From positions 1-64,000 of the forward strand of contig NZ_JAANOG010000011.1 of the NCBI RefSeq assembly GCF_019923745.1: a DNA stretch of 64,000 nucleotides, in the 5' to 3' direction. The first letter of the stretch is position 1. Every line of letters starts with the position of its first letter. Both the position numbers and the translations under genes were made by a program. The notes beneath the pieces were generated by a model. It did no database searches. It saw only the letters and a program-made list of their open reading frames with translations, and had not been told where the DNA came from. This stretch comes from Aquirufa aurantiipilula (GTDB lineage: Bacteria > Bacteroidota > Bacteroidia > Cytophagales > Spirosomataceae). Positions 8,335-47,113 of this stretch are shown here, piece by piece.

Positions 8335-9968
8335 AAAAAACGACACAAGTATTTGCCATTTTGATCATCAGTCTACTTAGCATCAGCACGACTTGGGCTC
8401 AAAATAAAACTAAATCATTAGCTAAAAGACCAGCCTTGGTTGTAGGCATTGTGGTTGATCAAATGCGCTATGATTACTTATATAAATATCAAGATCGATA
8501 TAGCGATAATGGTTTCAAACGTTTAATGCGCGAAGGATTAAATTGTCAGGATAATCATTACAACTATGCCCCAACTGTAACTGCTGCTGGCCATGCTAGT
8601 GTGTATACAGGAACAGTACCTGCCGTTCATGGTATTGTAGGAAATGATTGGACAGATGTAGCCACGGGAAAAAAGGTATATTGTACAGAAGACAGTACGG
8701 TTACAACGGTAGGAACTACAGGCAAAACGGGATTTATGTCGCCCAAAAATCTTTGGACCAGCACTATTACTGACCAATTGAGAATTGCACAAAATTTCCG
8801 ATCTAAAACGATAGCAATTGCCTTGAAAGACCGTGGAGCTATTTTACCTGGAGGACATACGGCCAATGGGTCATATTGGTATGATTCCAAAGAAGGACGC
8901 TGGATTACATCCTCATTTTACATGAAAGAATTACCTACTTGGGTTCAGAAGTTTAATTCGGAAGAAAAAGCGCTAAAATATGTCAAGCAAGGATGGAATA
9001 CGTTATATCCAATAGAAAGCTATGTACAAAGTGCGGAAGACAATTTACCTTTTGAGGGAAAATTACCATCAGAAAAAACACCAACATTCCCACATGCACT
9101 AGAAGGTCCAAATCCATTGGAAATCATTCGTTCTACTCCATATGGTAATTCAATAACCAAAGATTTTGCTTTGAAAGCCATTGAAGAAGAAAAATTAGGA
9201 CAAAACAATAACACTGACTTTTTAGCGGTCAGCTTTTCGTCCACGGATTATGTAGGTCATGCTTTTGGACCACAATCCATCGAATTGGAAGATACGTATT
9301 TACGTTTGGACCGAGATATTGCTGAATTATTGAGCTATTTGGATAAGCAATTTGGCAAAGATCGAGTATTAGTATTTTTAACAGCTGACCATGCTGTAGC
9401 AGAAGTACCTGGATACTTACAATCTAAAAAAATGCCTGGTGGAGTATTTGAAGCTGGTAAAGCTTTAACGGAAGTTAAAAATGCCCTACAAAAAGAATTT
9501 GGAACAGATAAATTAATTGTGGGAAGTGAGAATTCACAACTTTACATTGACCATGCATTAGTAGAAAAATTAGCCATCAATCGCAAAAAACTACATCAAG
9601 TAATCTTGACTGCTTATTCCAAAATAGAAGGTACTTCCACCATAGTGGATATGCAGGATGTAACCAATAGTAGTTTGATTCAACCTTACAAAGAATTGGT
9701 ATCGAATGGATATAATCCCTCAAGAAGTGGTGATTTCATGATTTTATTAAAACCACAATGGTTTATGGGAGGAAAAACGGGTACCACCCACAGTACCTTA
9801 TATGCTTATGATACACATGTACCTTTATTATTTTATGGCTGGAAGGTGAAACCTCAAGAGTTAAGTAGTAGAACTAGCATTAGCGACATATCTACCACCT
9901 TAGCAAATTGGTTAGGTTGCATGGAGCCTTCAGGAAGTATTGGTAAAATAATACCGATGGCTAAATAA
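8331..9968 (+). CDS. PafA-type alkaline phosphatase, secreted
   Basis: A periplasmic or surface phosphomonoesterase of the alkaline phosphatase superfamily. A signal peptide ends near AWAQ at residue 24. Active-site residues line up with the Elizabethkingia PafA pattern: Asp43 in VVDQMRYDYL, nucleophile Thr84 in PTVTAAGHAS, Asn105 in GNDW, and Lys166/Arg168 in ALKDRG. Metal ligands appear as SSTDYVGHAFG and TADHAVAEVP. It probably releases phosphate from extracellular organophosphates. Length (545 aa) is normal. A phosphodiesterase of the same superfamily is less likely because the Lys/Arg pair is characteristic of PafA monoesterases. Confidence 0.87.
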   Translation: MKKTTQVFAILIISLLSISTTWAQNKTKSLAKRPALVVGIVVDQMRYDYLYKYQDRYSDNGFKRLMREGLNCQDNHYNYAPTVTAAGHASVYTGTVPAVHGIVGNDWTDVATGKKVYCTEDSTVTTVGTTGKTGFMSPKNLWTSTITDQLRIAQNFRSKTIAIALKDRGAILPGGHTANGSYWYDSKEGRWITSSFYMKELPTWVQKFNSEEKALKYVKQGWNTLYPIESYVQSAEDNLPFEGKLPSEKTPTFPHALEGPNPLEIIRSTPYGNSITKDFALKAIEEEKLGQNNNTDFLAVSFSSTDYVGHAFGPQSIELEDTYLRLDRDIAELLSYLDKQFGKDRVLVFLTADHAVAEVPGYLQSKKMPGGVFEAGKALTEVKNALQKEFGTDKLIVGSENSQLYIDHALVEKLAINRKKLHQVILTAYSKIEGTSTIVDMQDVTNSSLIQPYKELVSNGYNPSRSGDFMILLKPQWFMGGKTGTTHSTLYAYDTHVPLLFYGWKVKPQELSSRTSISDISTTLANWLGCMEPSGSIGKIIPMAK

Positions 9969-41283: not shown

Positions 41284-42030
41284 CTACTTAACGGCTAATC
41301 TCAAGAAATCGGCTAACTCACTCAAATGATCCGTCCCAATATAATCAACTCCCAAATCATATAAGGTTTGATACCCCAATAAACTATCCGGAGTAGCCCA
41401 TAACCTCAATTTTCTTCCTTGAGCATGCACTCGCTCTACATAAGCTTTCAATTTCTCTTTTAATTCTGGACTCATCGGGCCTTGTCCACTCCAAGCGCCA
41501 AATTTATATAAAGATTCACTTTCTAAAACAACACGATTTCCTAATCCAGCTGGATATGTTTCGGTAGACCGTCCGTCAAATGTGATCCATGATGGATACA
41601 ATACATAGTTTTTAATCGCTGGACGGTTGCCCGAAATCACAATTCTCAAACCTCTTTTAAGGAATAAATCTTTATGAGGCTCCAATGCCTTAATCAAAAC
41701 GGGTAGTGTCGAATCAGCACTGGTTTTAAAATCTATTAAGAACTGATGAAAATTCCCTTGCTTATCTTCAGATAAAACCTTCACTATAGGATCAATATAC
41801 AAAGTTTTCAAAGTCCTATCTGCCTTGACATCTTTTACATCGTGGGCTACTAATAATTCTCCTTTGATGGAATACACGTCAGCCTCAATGGAACCAAAGC
41901 CTAAATTAAATGCTTCATAGAATGGCTTAGTATGTTCATAATCATTATGCGCATGTGCCTTTAACAAGGCCTTTTGAGCCATCAAATTACTTGTAAATAG
42001 ACAAAGTAATATTCCAATGAAAACTTTCAT
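41284..42030 (-). CDS. secreted glycerophosphodiester phosphodiesterase/PI-PLC-like protein
   Basis: A signal peptide (MKVFIGILLCLFTSNLMAQ) precedes a TIM-barrel domain. KAHAHNDYEHTKPFYEAFNLGFGSIEADVY and ELLVAHD supply the two catalytic His residues and the Glu/Asp metal ligands of the GDPD/PI-PLC-like fold. WITFDGRSTETYP and LGVDYIGTDHLSELA are in the C-terminal half. It resembles AIM6-like PLC proteins in Bacteroidota. Substrate is undetermined, perhaps extracellular glycerophosphodiesters. It starts one base before the pyruvate carboxylase stop on the same strand, so it belongs to that operon. Confidence 0.8.
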   Translation of the reverse strand: MKVFIGILLCLFTSNLMAQKALLKAHAHNDYEHTKPFYEAFNLGFGSIEADVYSIKGELLVAHDVKDVKADRTLKTLYIDPIVKVLSEDKQGNFHQFLIDFKTSADSTLPVLIKALEPHKDLFLKRGLRIVISGNRPAIKNYVLYPSWITFDGRSTETYPAGLGNRVVLESESLYKFGAWSGQGPMSPELKEKLKAYVERVHAQGRKLRLWATPDSLLGYQTLYDLGVDYIGTDHLSELADFLRLAVK

Positions 42031-42031
42031 C

Positions 42032-45000
42032 TTATTTCTTTAAATAATCTCCTGAAACAATTTGTGTATCTGCCTGTGTAGGTCGATTGTACAAATAAGC
42101 ATAGCTTTCAACCTCTTGTCCATTCAGTTGAACTGAAACTTTAGTTCTTACGAACAAACTTTTATCTGGCTTATCCGCATCAAACTCTTCATACTCATCC
42201 AAAACACTCAATAGTTTAATTGTATTTGATAATAAATACAACTCACCTATCACTTGATCTTTCTGATCTTCAGAAGCAATGATACCTGGATATTCTGCTA
42301 CTTGGTACATGCGACCTTGGTAAGTTGCCATACCTACATAATCAGAATTTCTCGCCAATAAACGATGTAGGTCATTACCACAATCACGACGAAGCGTACC
42401 ATAGACAAATAAGTATTCTTCTACGTTAGGTTCTGGTAATTTAGCCTCCTCCAAAGTCAAAACTAAATCTTCTTGCTCTACTACTGTTCCCTCATGTAGC
42501 ACTACATTTCCAATGATTCCTTCAAATGGGGCTGAAACAATAGACTCCATCTTCATAGCCTCAATCACATACAAAGGAGCATTTTTCTTTACTTCTTCGC
42601 CTGGTTTCACCAAGATACGACTTAGGCGTCCTTGCAAAGGTGCGCCGATATCTCCTTTTTGAGAAGCCTTAACGTGTTGTGGACGTTCTACTTTAATATT
42701 TTTATCAAGAACTTTAATTCTTCTAGCTTGACCGTTCAATTCAAAAGTCACATTACGTAAACCTGACTCATCAGGCTCAGACATGTGTAAGAACTTCACA
42801 ATAATCGTTTTTCCTGGCTCAATGGTAATCATGATTTCTTCATCCTGCTTTAAGCCATAGAAGAATGCAGGTGTTGGCATGGCCGTTAAATCGCCATAAA
42901 TTTGGTGATTCTTGTAGTAATCTTCGTATACTTTCGGATACATTTTATACGACAAGTAATCATAGAATCCGCCTTCATTATCTGGGAATTTCGCTTGAAA
43001 AGCTGCAAAATCCTTATCAAAATCAATCGGTGCCAAATGGTCATTCGGTCTTCCTTCCATCGGTGTCTCCCCCTTCAGAATGATTTCCTGCAATTGTTTA
43101 GGGAATCCTTGATATGGTTGACCTAAACCTCCTTTAAAGAAATCTTTTACTGACTCTGGGAAAGAAAGCGTTGCTCCTTTAGCATATACATCTTCAGCGG
43201 TTAAAGAATTGGCAGTCATAAAAATAGCCATATCTCCTACTACTTTGGATGAAGGTGTTACCTTAACTATATCACCAAATAACTTATTGGCTTCAGAATA
43301 ATTATCCTTCAATAATTCAAATTTATCCCCTACGCCTAGAGCAACTGCCTGTCCACGTAAGTTGGTATATTGTCCTCCTGGAATCTCATTATCATATACT
43401 TCTGCAGTACCCGCCTTCAATTCCGATTCAAATGGTGTATACCAAGTTCTCACCGCTTCCCAATAGTTGGAATACTGATTCATCTCCTCTAAATCTATCA
43501 AATCTTGGTCAGCGTGACCTTGCATCATCGCTACCAAAGAATTCAGATTCGGTTGAGAGGTTAGTCCTGACATTGCAGCTAAAGCACCATCAACCACGTC
43601 TACTCCCGCTTCAATTGCCTTTAAATAAGTAGCAGATTGAATTGATGCCGTATCATGTGTATGCAAGTGAATAGGTATATCCACTGCCTTTTTAAGTTCT
43701 TTAACTAATAGCTCTGCTTGGAAAGGTCTTAATAAACCAGCCATATCTTTAATAGCTAACATATGAGCTCCCTCATCTTCTAACTGACGAGCCAAATCCA
43801 AGTAATACTGTAAATTATATTTCTCATTGGTAAATACATCTCCAGTGTAACAAATGGCTGCTTCAGCAATACCAGGAGTTCTTTCTCTCACTGCACGAAT
43901 CGACACTTTCATTGCCTCCACCCAGTTCAAAGAGTCAAAAATACGAAAGACGTCAATTCCTGCTTCCGATGATTTCTCTACGAACTTCTCAATCAAATTA
44001 TCCGGATAGGCCGAATATCCCACAGCATTGGATCCACGGAATAACATTTGAAGCAACATATTCGGCATAGCTTGACGGAATTCCTGTAAACGCTTCCAAG
44101 GAGATTCTTGAAGGAATCGCATAGCTACATCAAACGTAGCACCACCCCAAACTTCCATGGAAAACAATTGAGGAAAAGATTTGGCAAAGCCCGAAGCCAC
44201 AGCCAACATATCTTGTGTTCTGACACGTGTAGCTAATAACGACTGATGACCATCACGGAATGTGGTATCCGTAAATAACACTTGCTTCGTCTCACGAATG
44301 TGCTTGGCAAATTTCTCAGGTCCCAATTCCATCAACAACTGCTTATTGCCTTTTGGAAAATCAGACAAAGCATCCGAATATGGAATAATTGGTGGTCTGA
44401 AACTCGCCGTAGGTTTGACCTTAACATCGGGGTTTCCATTGACAATCACTTCGCCTAAATAGCGCAAAGCCTTTGTAGAACGGTCACGGGTTGGCGTGAA
44501 CTTAAATAATTCTGGATGCGTATCAATAAACTGAACGGTACACTGACCATTCTGGAAGATTGGATGTGAAATTACATTTCTTAGGAAAGGAATATTAGTT
44601 TTCACCCCACGAATACGAAACTCAGTTAATGCACGATTTAAGCGTTCAGCTGCTCCTAATAAAGTTCTTCCTTTAGCAGAAACTTTCACCAACATGGAAT
44701 CAAAATACGGAGATATTTTTACTCCAGGATAAGAAGAACCTTCATCTAGTCTTATGCCAAATCCAGCAGCATTACGGTAGGCAATGATAGTACCAAAATC
44801 TGGCTTAAAGCCATTAGTTGGATCCTCGGTGGTAATTCGACATTGAATAGCGAATCCTCTCAAAGGAATATCTTCTTGTGACAGGATGTAAATACCAGGA
44901 TCAGACAGTTTGTAATTTTGAGCAATTAATATTTGGGTACGAACGATATCTATTCCTGTTACCTCCTCCGTAATCGTGTGCTCAACTTGAACACGAGGAT

Positions 45001-45892
45001 TAACTTCAATGAAATAAATGTTTTCGTCACGGTCAACTAAAAACTCTACCGTACCGGCATTGTAGTAGTTTACTGCTTTACCTATTGAAAGAGCATATTG
45101 GTATAATTTCTTTTTCGTTTCGTCTTTGAGACCAAAAGAAGGTGCTATTTCTACCACCTTTTGGAATCGGCGCTGAACAGAACAATCGCGTTCATATAAG
45201 TGCACCAAATTACCATGTTGATCACCCAATAACTGTACTTCTATATGTTTGGGCTGATCAATGAATTTCTCTATGAAAATCGTTTCGTCACCAAAGGCAT
45301 TCTTTGCCTCATTTCGAGCCTCATTGTAAGCTTTTTCTAAATCTTCTTCTAAACGAACAACACGCATACCTCTTCCTCCTCCACCTGCTGCCGCTTTCAC
45401 CATCACTGGAAAACCAATTCTTTTGGCTTCAGAAAGTGCCAATGAATAAACTGACAAATCTCCCTTTGAATCTTGAATCATCGGAACATTGGCTTTCATG
45501 GCCGCAACTTTCGCAGCAACTTTATCACCCAATGCATCCATCGCCTCTGGAGAAGGACCTACAAAGACAACTCCTTCTTCCCTACAACGACGAGCCAAAT
45601 TGACATTCTCGGATAAAAATCCGTATCCCGGATGTATCGCATCGATGTTTTTGCTTTTACATAAAGCAATCAATCCTTCATAATCCAAATAAGGTTTTAA
45701 AGGCTCATCGTCTTTACCAATTTGGTAGGCTTCATCCGCTTTGTAACGGTGTAAGGAATACCTATCCTCAAAGGTATAAACAGCGACGGTCCGAATCCCC
45801 AATTCGGAGGCAGCACGCATGATACGAATAGCGATTTCACCACGATTGGCGATAAGGAGACTAGAAATTTTTCTTACGTATGACTTTGGCAT
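42032..45892 (-). CDS. pyc: pyruvate carboxylase fused to a C-terminal gamma-glutamylcyclotransferase-like domain
   Basis: A biotin enzyme that makes oxaloacetate from pyruvate and bicarbonate. Domains: biotin carboxylase with ATP-grasp (about 1-460; KAAAGGGGRGMRVV), carboxyltransferase TIM barrel (about 540-830; FTDTTFRDGHQSLLATRVRT), PYC_OADA allosteric region (about 830-1050), and a biotinyl domain with the modified Lys in EAMKMES at about residue 1114. Usual length is about 1150 aa, ending soon after the biotinyl domain. Here the frame continues 129 residues (about 42035-42421) into EEYLFVYGTLRRD...LSVLDEYEEF, a gamma-glutamylcyclotransferase-like/AIG2-like fold with YGTLR and a catalytic-type Glu. 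ATG 45892 gives MPKSYVRKISSLLIANRGEIA. No stop or frameshift lies at the junction. Confidence 0.9.
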   Translation of the reverse strand: MPKSYVRKISSLLIANRGEIAIRIMRAASELGIRTVAVYTFEDRYSLHRYKADEAYQIGKDDEPLKPYLDYEGLIALCKSKNIDAIHPGYGFLSENVNLARRCREEGVVFVGPSPEAMDALGDKVAAKVAAMKANVPMIQDSKGDLSVYSLALSEAKRIGFPVMVKAAAGGGGRGMRVVRLEEDLEKAYNEARNEAKNAFGDETIFIEKFIDQPKHIEVQLLGDQHGNLVHLYERDCSVQRRFQKVVEIAPSFGLKDETKKKLYQYALSIGKAVNYYNAGTVEFLVDRDENIYFIEVNPRVQVEHTITEEVTGIDIVRTQILIAQNYKLSDPGIYILSQEDIPLRGFAIQCRITTEDPTNGFKPDFGTIIAYRNAAGFGIRLDEGSSYPGVKISPYFDSMLVKVSAKGRTLLGAAERLNRALTEFRIRGVKTNIPFLRNVISHPIFQNGQCTVQFIDTHPELFKFTPTRDRSTKALRYLGEVIVNGNPDVKVKPTASFRPPIIPYSDALSDFPKGNKQLLMELGPEKFAKHIRETKQVLFTDTTFRDGHQSLLATRVRTQDMLAVASGFAKSFPQLFSMEVWGGATFDVAMRFLQESPWKRLQEFRQAMPNMLLQMLFRGSNAVGYSAYPDNLIEKFVEKSSEAGIDVFRIFDSLNWVEAMKVSIRAVRERTPGIAEAAICYTGDVFTNEKYNLQYYLDLARQLEDEGAHMLAIKDMAGLLRPFQAELLVKELKKAVDIPIHLHTHDTASIQSATYLKAIEAGVDVVDGALAAMSGLTSQPNLNSLVAMMQGHADQDLIDLEEMNQYSNYWEAVRTWYTPFESELKAGTAEVYDNEIPGGQYTNLRGQAVALGVGDKFELLKDNYSEANKLFGDIVKVTPSSKVVGDMAIFMTANSLTAEDVYAKGATLSFPESVKDFFKGGLGQPYQGFPKQLQEIILKGETPMEGRPNDHLAPIDFDKDFAAFQAKFPDNEGGFYDYLSYKMYPKVYEDYYKNHQIYGDLTAMPTPAFFYGLKQDEEIMITIEPGKTIIVKFLHMSEPDESGLRNVTFELNGQARRIKVLDKNIKVERPQHVKASQKGDIGAPLQGRLSRILVKPGEEVKKNAPLYVIEAMKMESIVSAPFEGIIGNVVLHEGTVVEQEDLVLTLEEAKLPEPNVEEYLFVYGTLRRDCGNDLHRLLARNSDYVGMATYQGRMYQVAEYPGIIASEDQKDQVIGELYLLSNTIKLLSVLDEYEEFDADKPDKSLFVRTKVSVQLNGQEVESYAYLYNRPTQADTQIVSGDYLKK

Positions 45893-45915
45893 TATCTTCA
45901 ATTATTGCATTCTAA

Positions 45916-46105: not shown

Positions 46106-47113
46106 ATGAACACAAATAAACCTTTGATTGGTATTAGCCTAGGTGATTATAATGGCATAGGCCCTGAGATCATTTTAAAAGCATTGGGTAGCCCAAGAAT
46201 TTTGAAATGGTGTACTCCTGTCATTTATGGTTCTAAAAAGGTATTGGATTTCTACCGACAAAAATTAGAGCTGAAAGATTGGTCTATCAAAATAGTTGAC
46301 AACCTTAATCAGGTACAAGAAGGTCAAAGTTATTTAGTGAAAGCATGGGACGATAAAGATACCATGGTTGAACCTGGAAAAGTAACCCAAGAAGCTGGAA
46401 AAGCCGCCTTTGATTGCCTGGAAATGGCGATTAAAGATTTAGATCGTGGCTTATTATCTGCCTTGGTGACTGCTCCTATCAATAAACATAACATTCAGTC
46501 TGAGGCATTTTCATTTCCTGGACATACAGAATATTTAACCGAACGTTTTGATGCCAAATCGTCATTAATGATGATGGTAAGTGATAACCTACGTATGGGA
46601 GTTGCTACGGGACATTTACCCTTACAAGAAGTAAGCAATGCCTTGAATGCCCAATTGCTAAAAGATAAAATCAGTTTGTTTTTAAAGAGTTTGAAAGAAG
46701 ATTTCTCTATTGATAAACCCAAATTAGCTGTATTAGGATTAAACCCTCATGCAGGAGAATCGGGCTTATTAGGAAAAGAGGAATTAGAAATCATTCAACC
46801 AGTCATCGACGAATTTAGAAGCAAAGGAAATTTAGTGTTTGGTCCATATCCAGCCGATGGTTTTTTTGGTAAAGCACAATTCAAAGAATTTGATGGCGTT
46901 TTAGGTATGTATCATGATCAAGGTTTGATACCTTTCAAATACATAGCTTTTGATACCGGTGTCAATTTTACTGCGGGACTTCCCATCATTAGAACATCTC
47001 CAGATCATGGAACTGCCTATGATATAGCTGGTAAAAATGAAGCTGATCCTAGTTCCTTCATGAATGCCATCTTTTTGGCAATGGATTTAGTAAAAAATAG
47101 AATGCAAGCATAA
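46106..47113 (+). CDS. pdxA: 4-hydroxythreonine-4-phosphate dehydrogenase
   Basis: An NAD enzyme of the DXP-dependent pyridoxal phosphate pathway. GISLGDYNGIGPEIILKAL at the N-terminus, TAPINKHNIQSEAFSFPGHTEYL near 122 (Lys and the metal-binding His), GLNPHAGESGLLGKEE near 210, and YHDQGLIPFKYIAFDTGVN with a metal-binding His near 270 are diagnostic. The length of 335 aa is normal. The 2-hydroxyacid dehydrogenase begins one base after its stop, and PdxB-like activity of that neighbour would fit the same pathway. Confidence 0.92.
   Translation: MNTNKPLIGISLGDYNGIGPEIILKALGSPRILKWCTPVIYGSKKVLDFYRQKLELKDWSIKIVDNLNQVQEGQSYLVKAWDDKDTMVEPGKVTQEAGKAAFDCLEMAIKDLDRGLLSALVTAPINKHNIQSEAFSFPGHTEYLTERFDAKSSLMMMVSDNLRMGVATGHLPLQEVSNALNAQLLKDKISLFLKSLKEDFSIDKPKLAVLGLNPHAGESGLLGKEELEIIQPVIDEFRSKGNLVFGPYPADGFFGKAQFKEFDGVLGMYHDQGLIPFKYIAFDTGVNFTAGLPIIRTSPDHGTAYDIAGKNEADPSSFMNAIFLAMDLVKNRMQA

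Follow-up and report, generated by a model that had tools for sequence, protein, structure and literature searches.

The cellular role of the bacterial GGACT-like proteins (AIG2-like gamma-glutamyl cyclotransferases, Pfam family PF06094) is poorly defined. For mouse GGACT, the catalytic-site residues are described as Tyr7, Gly8, Thr9, Leu10, Ile50, Glu82, Tyr88, Tyr115 and Tyr143 (PMC2954230). Another enzyme to be considered here is allophanate hydrolase, described as a part of urea amidolyase, which also has a biotin-dependent urea carboxylase (PMC5770610). We analyzed a stretch of 64,000 nucleotides from Aquirufa aurantiipilula (family Spirosomataceae; contig NZ_JAANOG010000011.1, positions 1 to 64,000; hereafter the window), and focused on one open frame therein, which was confirmed to encode a complete pyruvate carboxylase carrying an in-frame C-terminal GGACT domain.

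This is a clade-conserved architecture, made of a known enzyme and a known small domain; the fusion is solid and unexpected, while the mechanism we propose for it is inferred. The reading we favour, with moderate confidence, is that the fusion goes back to a single event in the sampled tree and was inherited, giving a bifunctional protein whose GGACT domain is most likely still an independent cyclotransferase-type enzyme. No published description of a pyruvate carboxylase-GGACT fusion was found among the titles and abstract openings listed, in a search that covered few subscription journals, and domain databases may list the architecture.

The fused protein and its junction

Pfam matches in the predicted protein follow the order of a single-chain pyruvate carboxylase, namely biotin carboxylase, carboxyltransferase, PYC_OADA and biotinyl domains, after which comes a GGACT match at amino acids (aa) 1164-1287, with 77.6 bits against a cut-off of 22.8 and an E value of 1.6e-21. 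Two NCBIfam pyruvate carboxylase equivalogs (NF009554 and TIGR01235) match aa 10-1151 and 15-1151, both above cut-off, and the biotin attachment motif AMKM is present. The carboxylase part is complete, and ATP-dependent pyruvate carboxylation is predicted from its domains.

To place the junction in context, we used a scan of 84,980 species genomes with two short patterns, which yielded 158 relatives of the GGACT alignment; the best 80 of the 158 were used, as 79 loci, 52 of them fused (L041-L092) and 27 not joined to a carboxylase (L093-L119). Together with the window, the 52 fused loci, all from other contigs, make up 53 fused sequences. All 53 share the carrier-GGACT junction, with a linker of constant length (EEAKLPEPNVEE in the window) and an invariant LPEP, and all keep the Glu of LDEYE. 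In plain carboxylases of this family the chain stops 37-42 residues from the A of AMKM (20/20), at the point where the linker begins, so that the join coincides with the usual carboxylase C-terminus. A search for an internal start from which a separate GGACT protein could be made retrieved no ATG between the carrier and FVYG in any of the 53 sequences; a TTG or GTG codon lies within the last 16 codons before FVYG in 38 of them, and a rare internal start is therefore still possible.

An assembly slip, a split gene or a frameshift that artificially joined two genes has a negligible probability, as the junction recurs on 53 separate contigs, from both isolates and metagenome-assembled genomes (MAGs), which rules out such an error, and no point in its favour was found. 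The preliminary description of this DNA had proposed a single open frame of about 1286 aa, and a real fusion placing the extra domain beside the biotin carrier. Both proposals hold, the former with the addition that the 1286 aa count from the ATG at 45892 and that an upstream TTG gives 1289 aa, the latter on the basis of Pfam and of the common junction.

Motif, fold and selection in the GGACT domain

In an alignment of 49 rows, 25 fused and 24 unfused, neither YGTL nor the catalytic-type Glu varies, and the fused Glu of LDEYE aligns with the Glu of LDDFE in mouse GGACT, which is Glu82 by residue count. The counterpart of mouse Tyr115 is presumably Tyr1269. In the AlphaFold model of the domain, the block means of the predicted local distance difference test (pLDDT) range from 81 to 94, with 72 at the very end. 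Foldseek retrieved mouse GGACT (1vkb) as the top match of this model (E 8.4e-7), followed by PH0828 (1v30), YkqA (2qik) and human GGACT (3jub, 3jud and 3juc, ranks 4-6), and, lower in the list, by Kluyveromyces allophanate hydrolase (4ist/4iss, E 3.8e-5 to 1.4e-4), with a root mean square deviation of about 12 over 165-173 columns and a template modelling (TM) score of at most 0.37. The earlier suggestion that the structure of the tail be predicted has thus led to a model that matches solved GGACT structures. The domain had been called GGCT-like: the YGTL motif, the catalytic-type Glu and the fold stand, and the name is better given as GGACT/AIG2-like (PF06094).

The ratio of non-synonymous to synonymous substitution rates (dN/dS) of the GGACT part was 0.017-0.132 in the seven pairs, out of ten, for which dS was finite; the finite values of the two main carboxylase regions were 0.008-0.025. 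Judged from these sequence comparisons, the GGACT domain is under purifying selection.

Distribution of the fusion and of separate GGACT genes

The family set comprised 121 genomes from 36 genera, in which a 232-residue tail query was used and long frames with PF02436 (PYC_OADA) were collected. The fusion is present in 28 of these genomes, from 8 genera, in a clade with Aquirufa, Sandaracinomonas, Arcicella, Flectobacillus and Pseudarcicella; in one of the 28 the carboxylase frame is broken (G077), and in another the GGACT part is cut by the contig end (G105). A plain carboxylase was found in 47 genomes, and the remaining 46 have no PYC_OADA match. The comparison with related genomes that the preliminary description had called for therefore returned the same fusion, and no adjacent separate genes in the genomes examined. 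Outside the family, searches of the order (291 genomes, threshold 1e-30) and of the phylum (395 genomes, threshold 1e-10) found no fusion, the matching frames of the phylum search being 441 aa or shorter, the window's own excepted.

In what regards separate GGACT genes, Pfam matches to PF06094 were found in 117/121 family genomes, and in 89 of the 93 unfused ones. A profile search was then run on 35 genomes, including all 28 with the fusion and the four lacking a Pfam match. It gave a single match per fused genome (28/28), the exception being Arcicella aurantiaca (G052), where an 85-aa 3' piece was also matched. The four genomes missed by Pfam all gave a match, which in G035 covers only 59 positions at a contig edge. 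Combining both searches, GGACT sequence is present in 121/121 genomes, no intact second GGACT occurs in any of the 28 fused genomes, and all 93 unfused genomes have GGACT sequence apart from any carboxylase. Eight unfused genomes have two Pfam matches in different places (G027, G039, G040, G046, G091, G095, G119 and G120). As 46 genomes keep GGACT without a PYC_OADA match, the basic job of GGACT is independent of the carboxylase; moreover, since GGACT is found in every genome, it is pyruvate carboxylase, rather than GGACT, that this family can more readily do without.

Some individual records deserve a comment. The Arcicella aurantiaca piece arises from a direct repeat: the last part of the fusion gene (3' end, 246 nt) recurs 837 bp downstream with 93% identity (L079:8175-8420 and 9012-9257). 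Two records carry titles that look wrong, as one titled 'Cellulophaga sp.' (L077) groups with Flectobacillus in the carboxylase tree, and one titled 'Spirosoma fluviale' (L068) groups with Aquirufa. Five more 'Spirosoma fluviale' MAG contigs (L053, L060, L069, L073 and L074) carry the fusion, with GGACT parts 72-77% identical to that of the window, and their titles also look wrong. A different GGACT fusion is seen in a Jejuia MAG (L103:7980-10070), where a 697-aa frame has GGACT at its start, an RNA pseudouridylate synthase domain at its end, and a weak, below-cut-off coiled-coil-type match in between. In L108 and L109 these two are separate, slightly overlapping frames, so that the L103 case looks like a joining of neighbours; L114 has no such neighbour match.

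Origin and genomic context

A carboxylase tree was built with 20 fused and 20 of the 47 plain rows, by a quick method and with midpoint rooting. The fused carboxylases fall on one side of a branch with a support of 100 in the Shimodaira-Hasegawa-like approximate likelihood ratio test, the nearest plain row being one from genus g20, on a long branch, and the 20 fused rows contain no nested plain carboxylase. In the GGACT tree, 19 fused domains and the Arcicella fragment form one group (support 99/91).

A fusion of neighbouring genes by loss of a stop codon is unlikely, because the separate genes lie far apart: in the 14 of 47 unfused carboxylase genomes in which the carboxylase gene (pyc) and GGACT are on one contig, the distance between them is 0.58-4.4 Mb in contig coordinates, that is, at least 0.58 Mb. 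In addition, 20 plain pyc loci, each 9 kb long, contained no GGACT.

Separate GGACT genes occupy a gcpE-YjbR...gldC site in 8 of 20 loci (L154, L155, L157, L161 and L163-L166), flanked by gcpE and YjbR, by gldC, cinA and an E2 gene on the opposite side, or by both sets; these eight come from a single neighbouring portion of the family, and the other 12 genes are elsewhere. Five fused genomes (G000, G030, G090, G005 and G001) and three of g20 (G046, G083 and G020) have the gcpE-gldC stretch, and no GGACT match lies in it. We do not claim this as the ancestral GGACT site, given those 12 genes and the fact that absence is no proof of former presence. In the loci compared (L172-L174, L175 and L181), this stretch has no match to the YjbR and tetratricopeptide repeat (TPR) genes in two Aquirufa genomes and Sandaracinomonas; Pseudarcicella hirudinis and G001 (Flectobacillus genus) keep both.

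The features of the fusion gene are listed in Table 1. In 17 of the 19 fused loci, all but L081 and L090, pdxA lies next to the gene in divergent orientation, and no pdxA match was found in the 20 plain pyc loci. Downstream, at 41284-42030 of the window, lies a gene for a 248-aa protein with a signal-peptide-like start and no Pfam match, whose likeness to a GDPD/PLC-type barrel was noticed by eye only; related frames are found at the corresponding site of seven other fused loci, which are of Aquirufa and Sandaracinomonas type. Overall, the neighbouring genes gave no clear lead to function, in a count that covered 15 of the 20 separate-gene loci (all but L153, L156, L158, L162 and L164).

Table 1. 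Positions in the window of the fusion gene, its domains and its divergent neighbour.
Feature	Position	Strand	Remarks
Pyruvate carboxylase-GGACT fusion gene	42032..45901	(-)	1289 aa from TTG at 45901; 1286 aa from ATG at 45892
Biotin carboxylase part (Biotin_carb_N, CPSase_L_D2, Biotin_carb_C; aa 12-460)	44522..45868	(-)	Pfam
PYC_OADA conserved carboxylase domain (aa 835-1036)	42794..43399	(-)	Pfam
Biotinyl carrier domain (aa 1085-1150), EAMKM, biotin Lys = aa 1117	42452..42649	(-)	Pfam and motif
Linker EEAKLPEPNVEE (aa 1151-1162, 12 residues)	42416..42451	(-)	Same length in 53/53 fused sequences
GGACT domain (aa 1164-1287), YGTL = aa 1167-1170	42041..42412	(-)	Pfam, model, Foldseek
Codon of catalytic-type Glu (aa 1238) in LDEYEEF	42188..42190	(-)	Alignment
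pdxA, divergent neighbour	46106..47113	(+)	Pfam

Possible function of the tethered domain

According to the reading we favour, in the ancestor of the five genera named above the 3' end of pyc would have been extended in frame by a GGACT gene; the separate GGACT gene is absent from the fused genomes, and its loss would belong to the same history, in an order of events that we infer. The product would be bifunctional, comprising a normal pyruvate carboxylase and a GGACT domain that most likely remains an enzyme in its own right, either a cyclotransferase of the gamma-glutamyl-amine type or a repair enzyme, and that a short conserved linker attaches to the biotin carrier. Such a cargo would be tolerated at the carrier's free C-terminus, and the benefit is perhaps only equal dosage and shared expression. 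The independent function is proposed because the active-site motif, the fold and selection have been kept, and because the genomes hold no other copy. Gamma-glutamyltransferase was found in 27 of the 28 fused genomes, with only pieces in G010 and G077, so that gamma-glutamyl compounds may well be handled in these bacteria.

Several observations weigh against this reading. The counterpart of Tyr88 of mammalian GGACT is, we assume, Phe1250 in the fused protein, and Ile50 and Tyr143 have no clear, alignable counterpart in fused proteins. The outer branches of the GGACT tree are weak and do not indicate the source gene of the fused domain, and the nearest separate GGACT genes are only about 30-47% identical to it; with the source unplaced and identity so low, the family's own gene may have been relocated, or a gene acquired from elsewhere may equally well have taken its place. 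The 5-oxoprolinase subunit PxpA (LamB_YcsF), which would recycle 5-oxoproline, was detected in no more than 4 of the 28 fused genomes, and in 33 of 121 overall, in a search that did not extend to other 5-oxoprolinases or to glutathione synthesis. Together with the 46 genomes that have GGACT and no PYC_OADA match, this leaves the link to glutathione and gamma-glutamyl turnover suggested in the preliminary description unsupported. Finally, the 20 fused carboxylases have 14 fixed positions of their own, which make up 3 of the 76 carrier positions against 11 of 1079 elsewhere (Fisher p 0.059), while a control clade of 6 has 11 such positions, 1/76 in the carrier against 10/1079 elsewhere (p 0.53). 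The constant linker, LPEP and these three carrier positions are a hint that the arrangement may be more than a passive tether.

The same weak excess in the carrier would fit a functional coupling, in which the GGACT domain binds or turns over a ligand of nitrogen metabolism, tunes the carboxylase or the movement of the carrier, and ties anaplerosis to gamma-glutamyl pools. Such coupling would also agree with the unvarying position of the domain, 12 residues past the carrier in 53/53 sequences, and with the lack of any observed loss, no plain carboxylase being found within the 20 fused tree rows. However, 46 family genomes have GGACT and no carboxylase, and in 47 others a plain carboxylase exists alongside a separate GGACT; moreover, the two AlphaFold models of carrier and GGACT, whose alignments cover the carrier by close fused relatives only, resolve neither the carrier (pLDDT below 50 over residues 1-101 in one, mean 50 in the other) nor an interface. 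We thus regard coupling as conceivable but unlikely. Its boldest form, a clade-wide carboxylase whose biotin arm drags an active cyclotransferase, so as to couple gamma-glutamyl metabolism with oxaloacetate supply, would be a second case, after urea amidolyase, of a GGACT fold within a biotin-dependent carboxylase, and we consider it quite doubtful. It is improbable that the domain is a degenerating passenger, an inert tail kept because its removal would destabilise the protein: the GGACT part does change faster than the two main carboxylase regions, but its dN/dS is well under 1, neither YGTL nor the Glu varies, and the fused domain is the sole intact copy of a sequence that every family genome has. 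Very improbable, in turn, is the recruitment of GGACT to carboxylase chemistry, where it would act, for example, on carboxylated intermediates or the modified lysine; the analogy would be with urea amidolyase and the C domain of its allophanate hydrolase. The Foldseek matches to 4ist/4iss would suit this idea, in spite of their high deviation and low TM score, as would the description of the N and C domains of allophanate hydrolase as catalysing sequential steps (PMC5770610). Nevertheless, the fusion protein has no amidase domain and its active site is GGACT-like. In addition, the part of allophanate hydrolase aligned by Foldseek is only presumed to be its C domain.

A small gene present throughout the family persists in one clade solely as part of another protein, and the sole intact genomic GGACT is there covalently tied to a well-understood enzyme, in bacteria of which several have been cultured. 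A neighbouring genus keeps both proteins apart, which makes for a natural experiment on the role of GGACT and on the effect of tethering on the carboxylase.

Comparison with known systems

The fusion protein resembles single-chain pyruvate carboxylases (PDB 3bg5, 3ho8 and 4qsh) in matching both equivalogs over nearly all of its carboxylase part. Among the 19 PDB sequences matched (E up to 1e-200), none extends more than 8 residues past its match, the matches ending at aa 1069-1149; unlike them, the fusion protein has 139 residues after aa 1150. With the GGACT/AIG2-like proteins of PF06094 (1vkb, 3jub and 3juc, and the bacterial YkqA, 2qik, and YtfP, 1xhs) it shares the Pfam score, YGTL, the Glu aligned with Glu82 and the predicted fold, but the relatives found are mostly encoded by short frames of their own, whereas here GGACT is the C-terminal domain of a carboxylase. 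Urea amidolyase is alike in that a domain of similar fold, according to Foldseek, is joined to a biotin-dependent carboxylase; there, however, the domain, presumably the C domain of allophanate hydrolase, follows an amidase and serves allophanate breakdown, whereas the fusion protein has no amidase by Pfam and carries the domain in another position.

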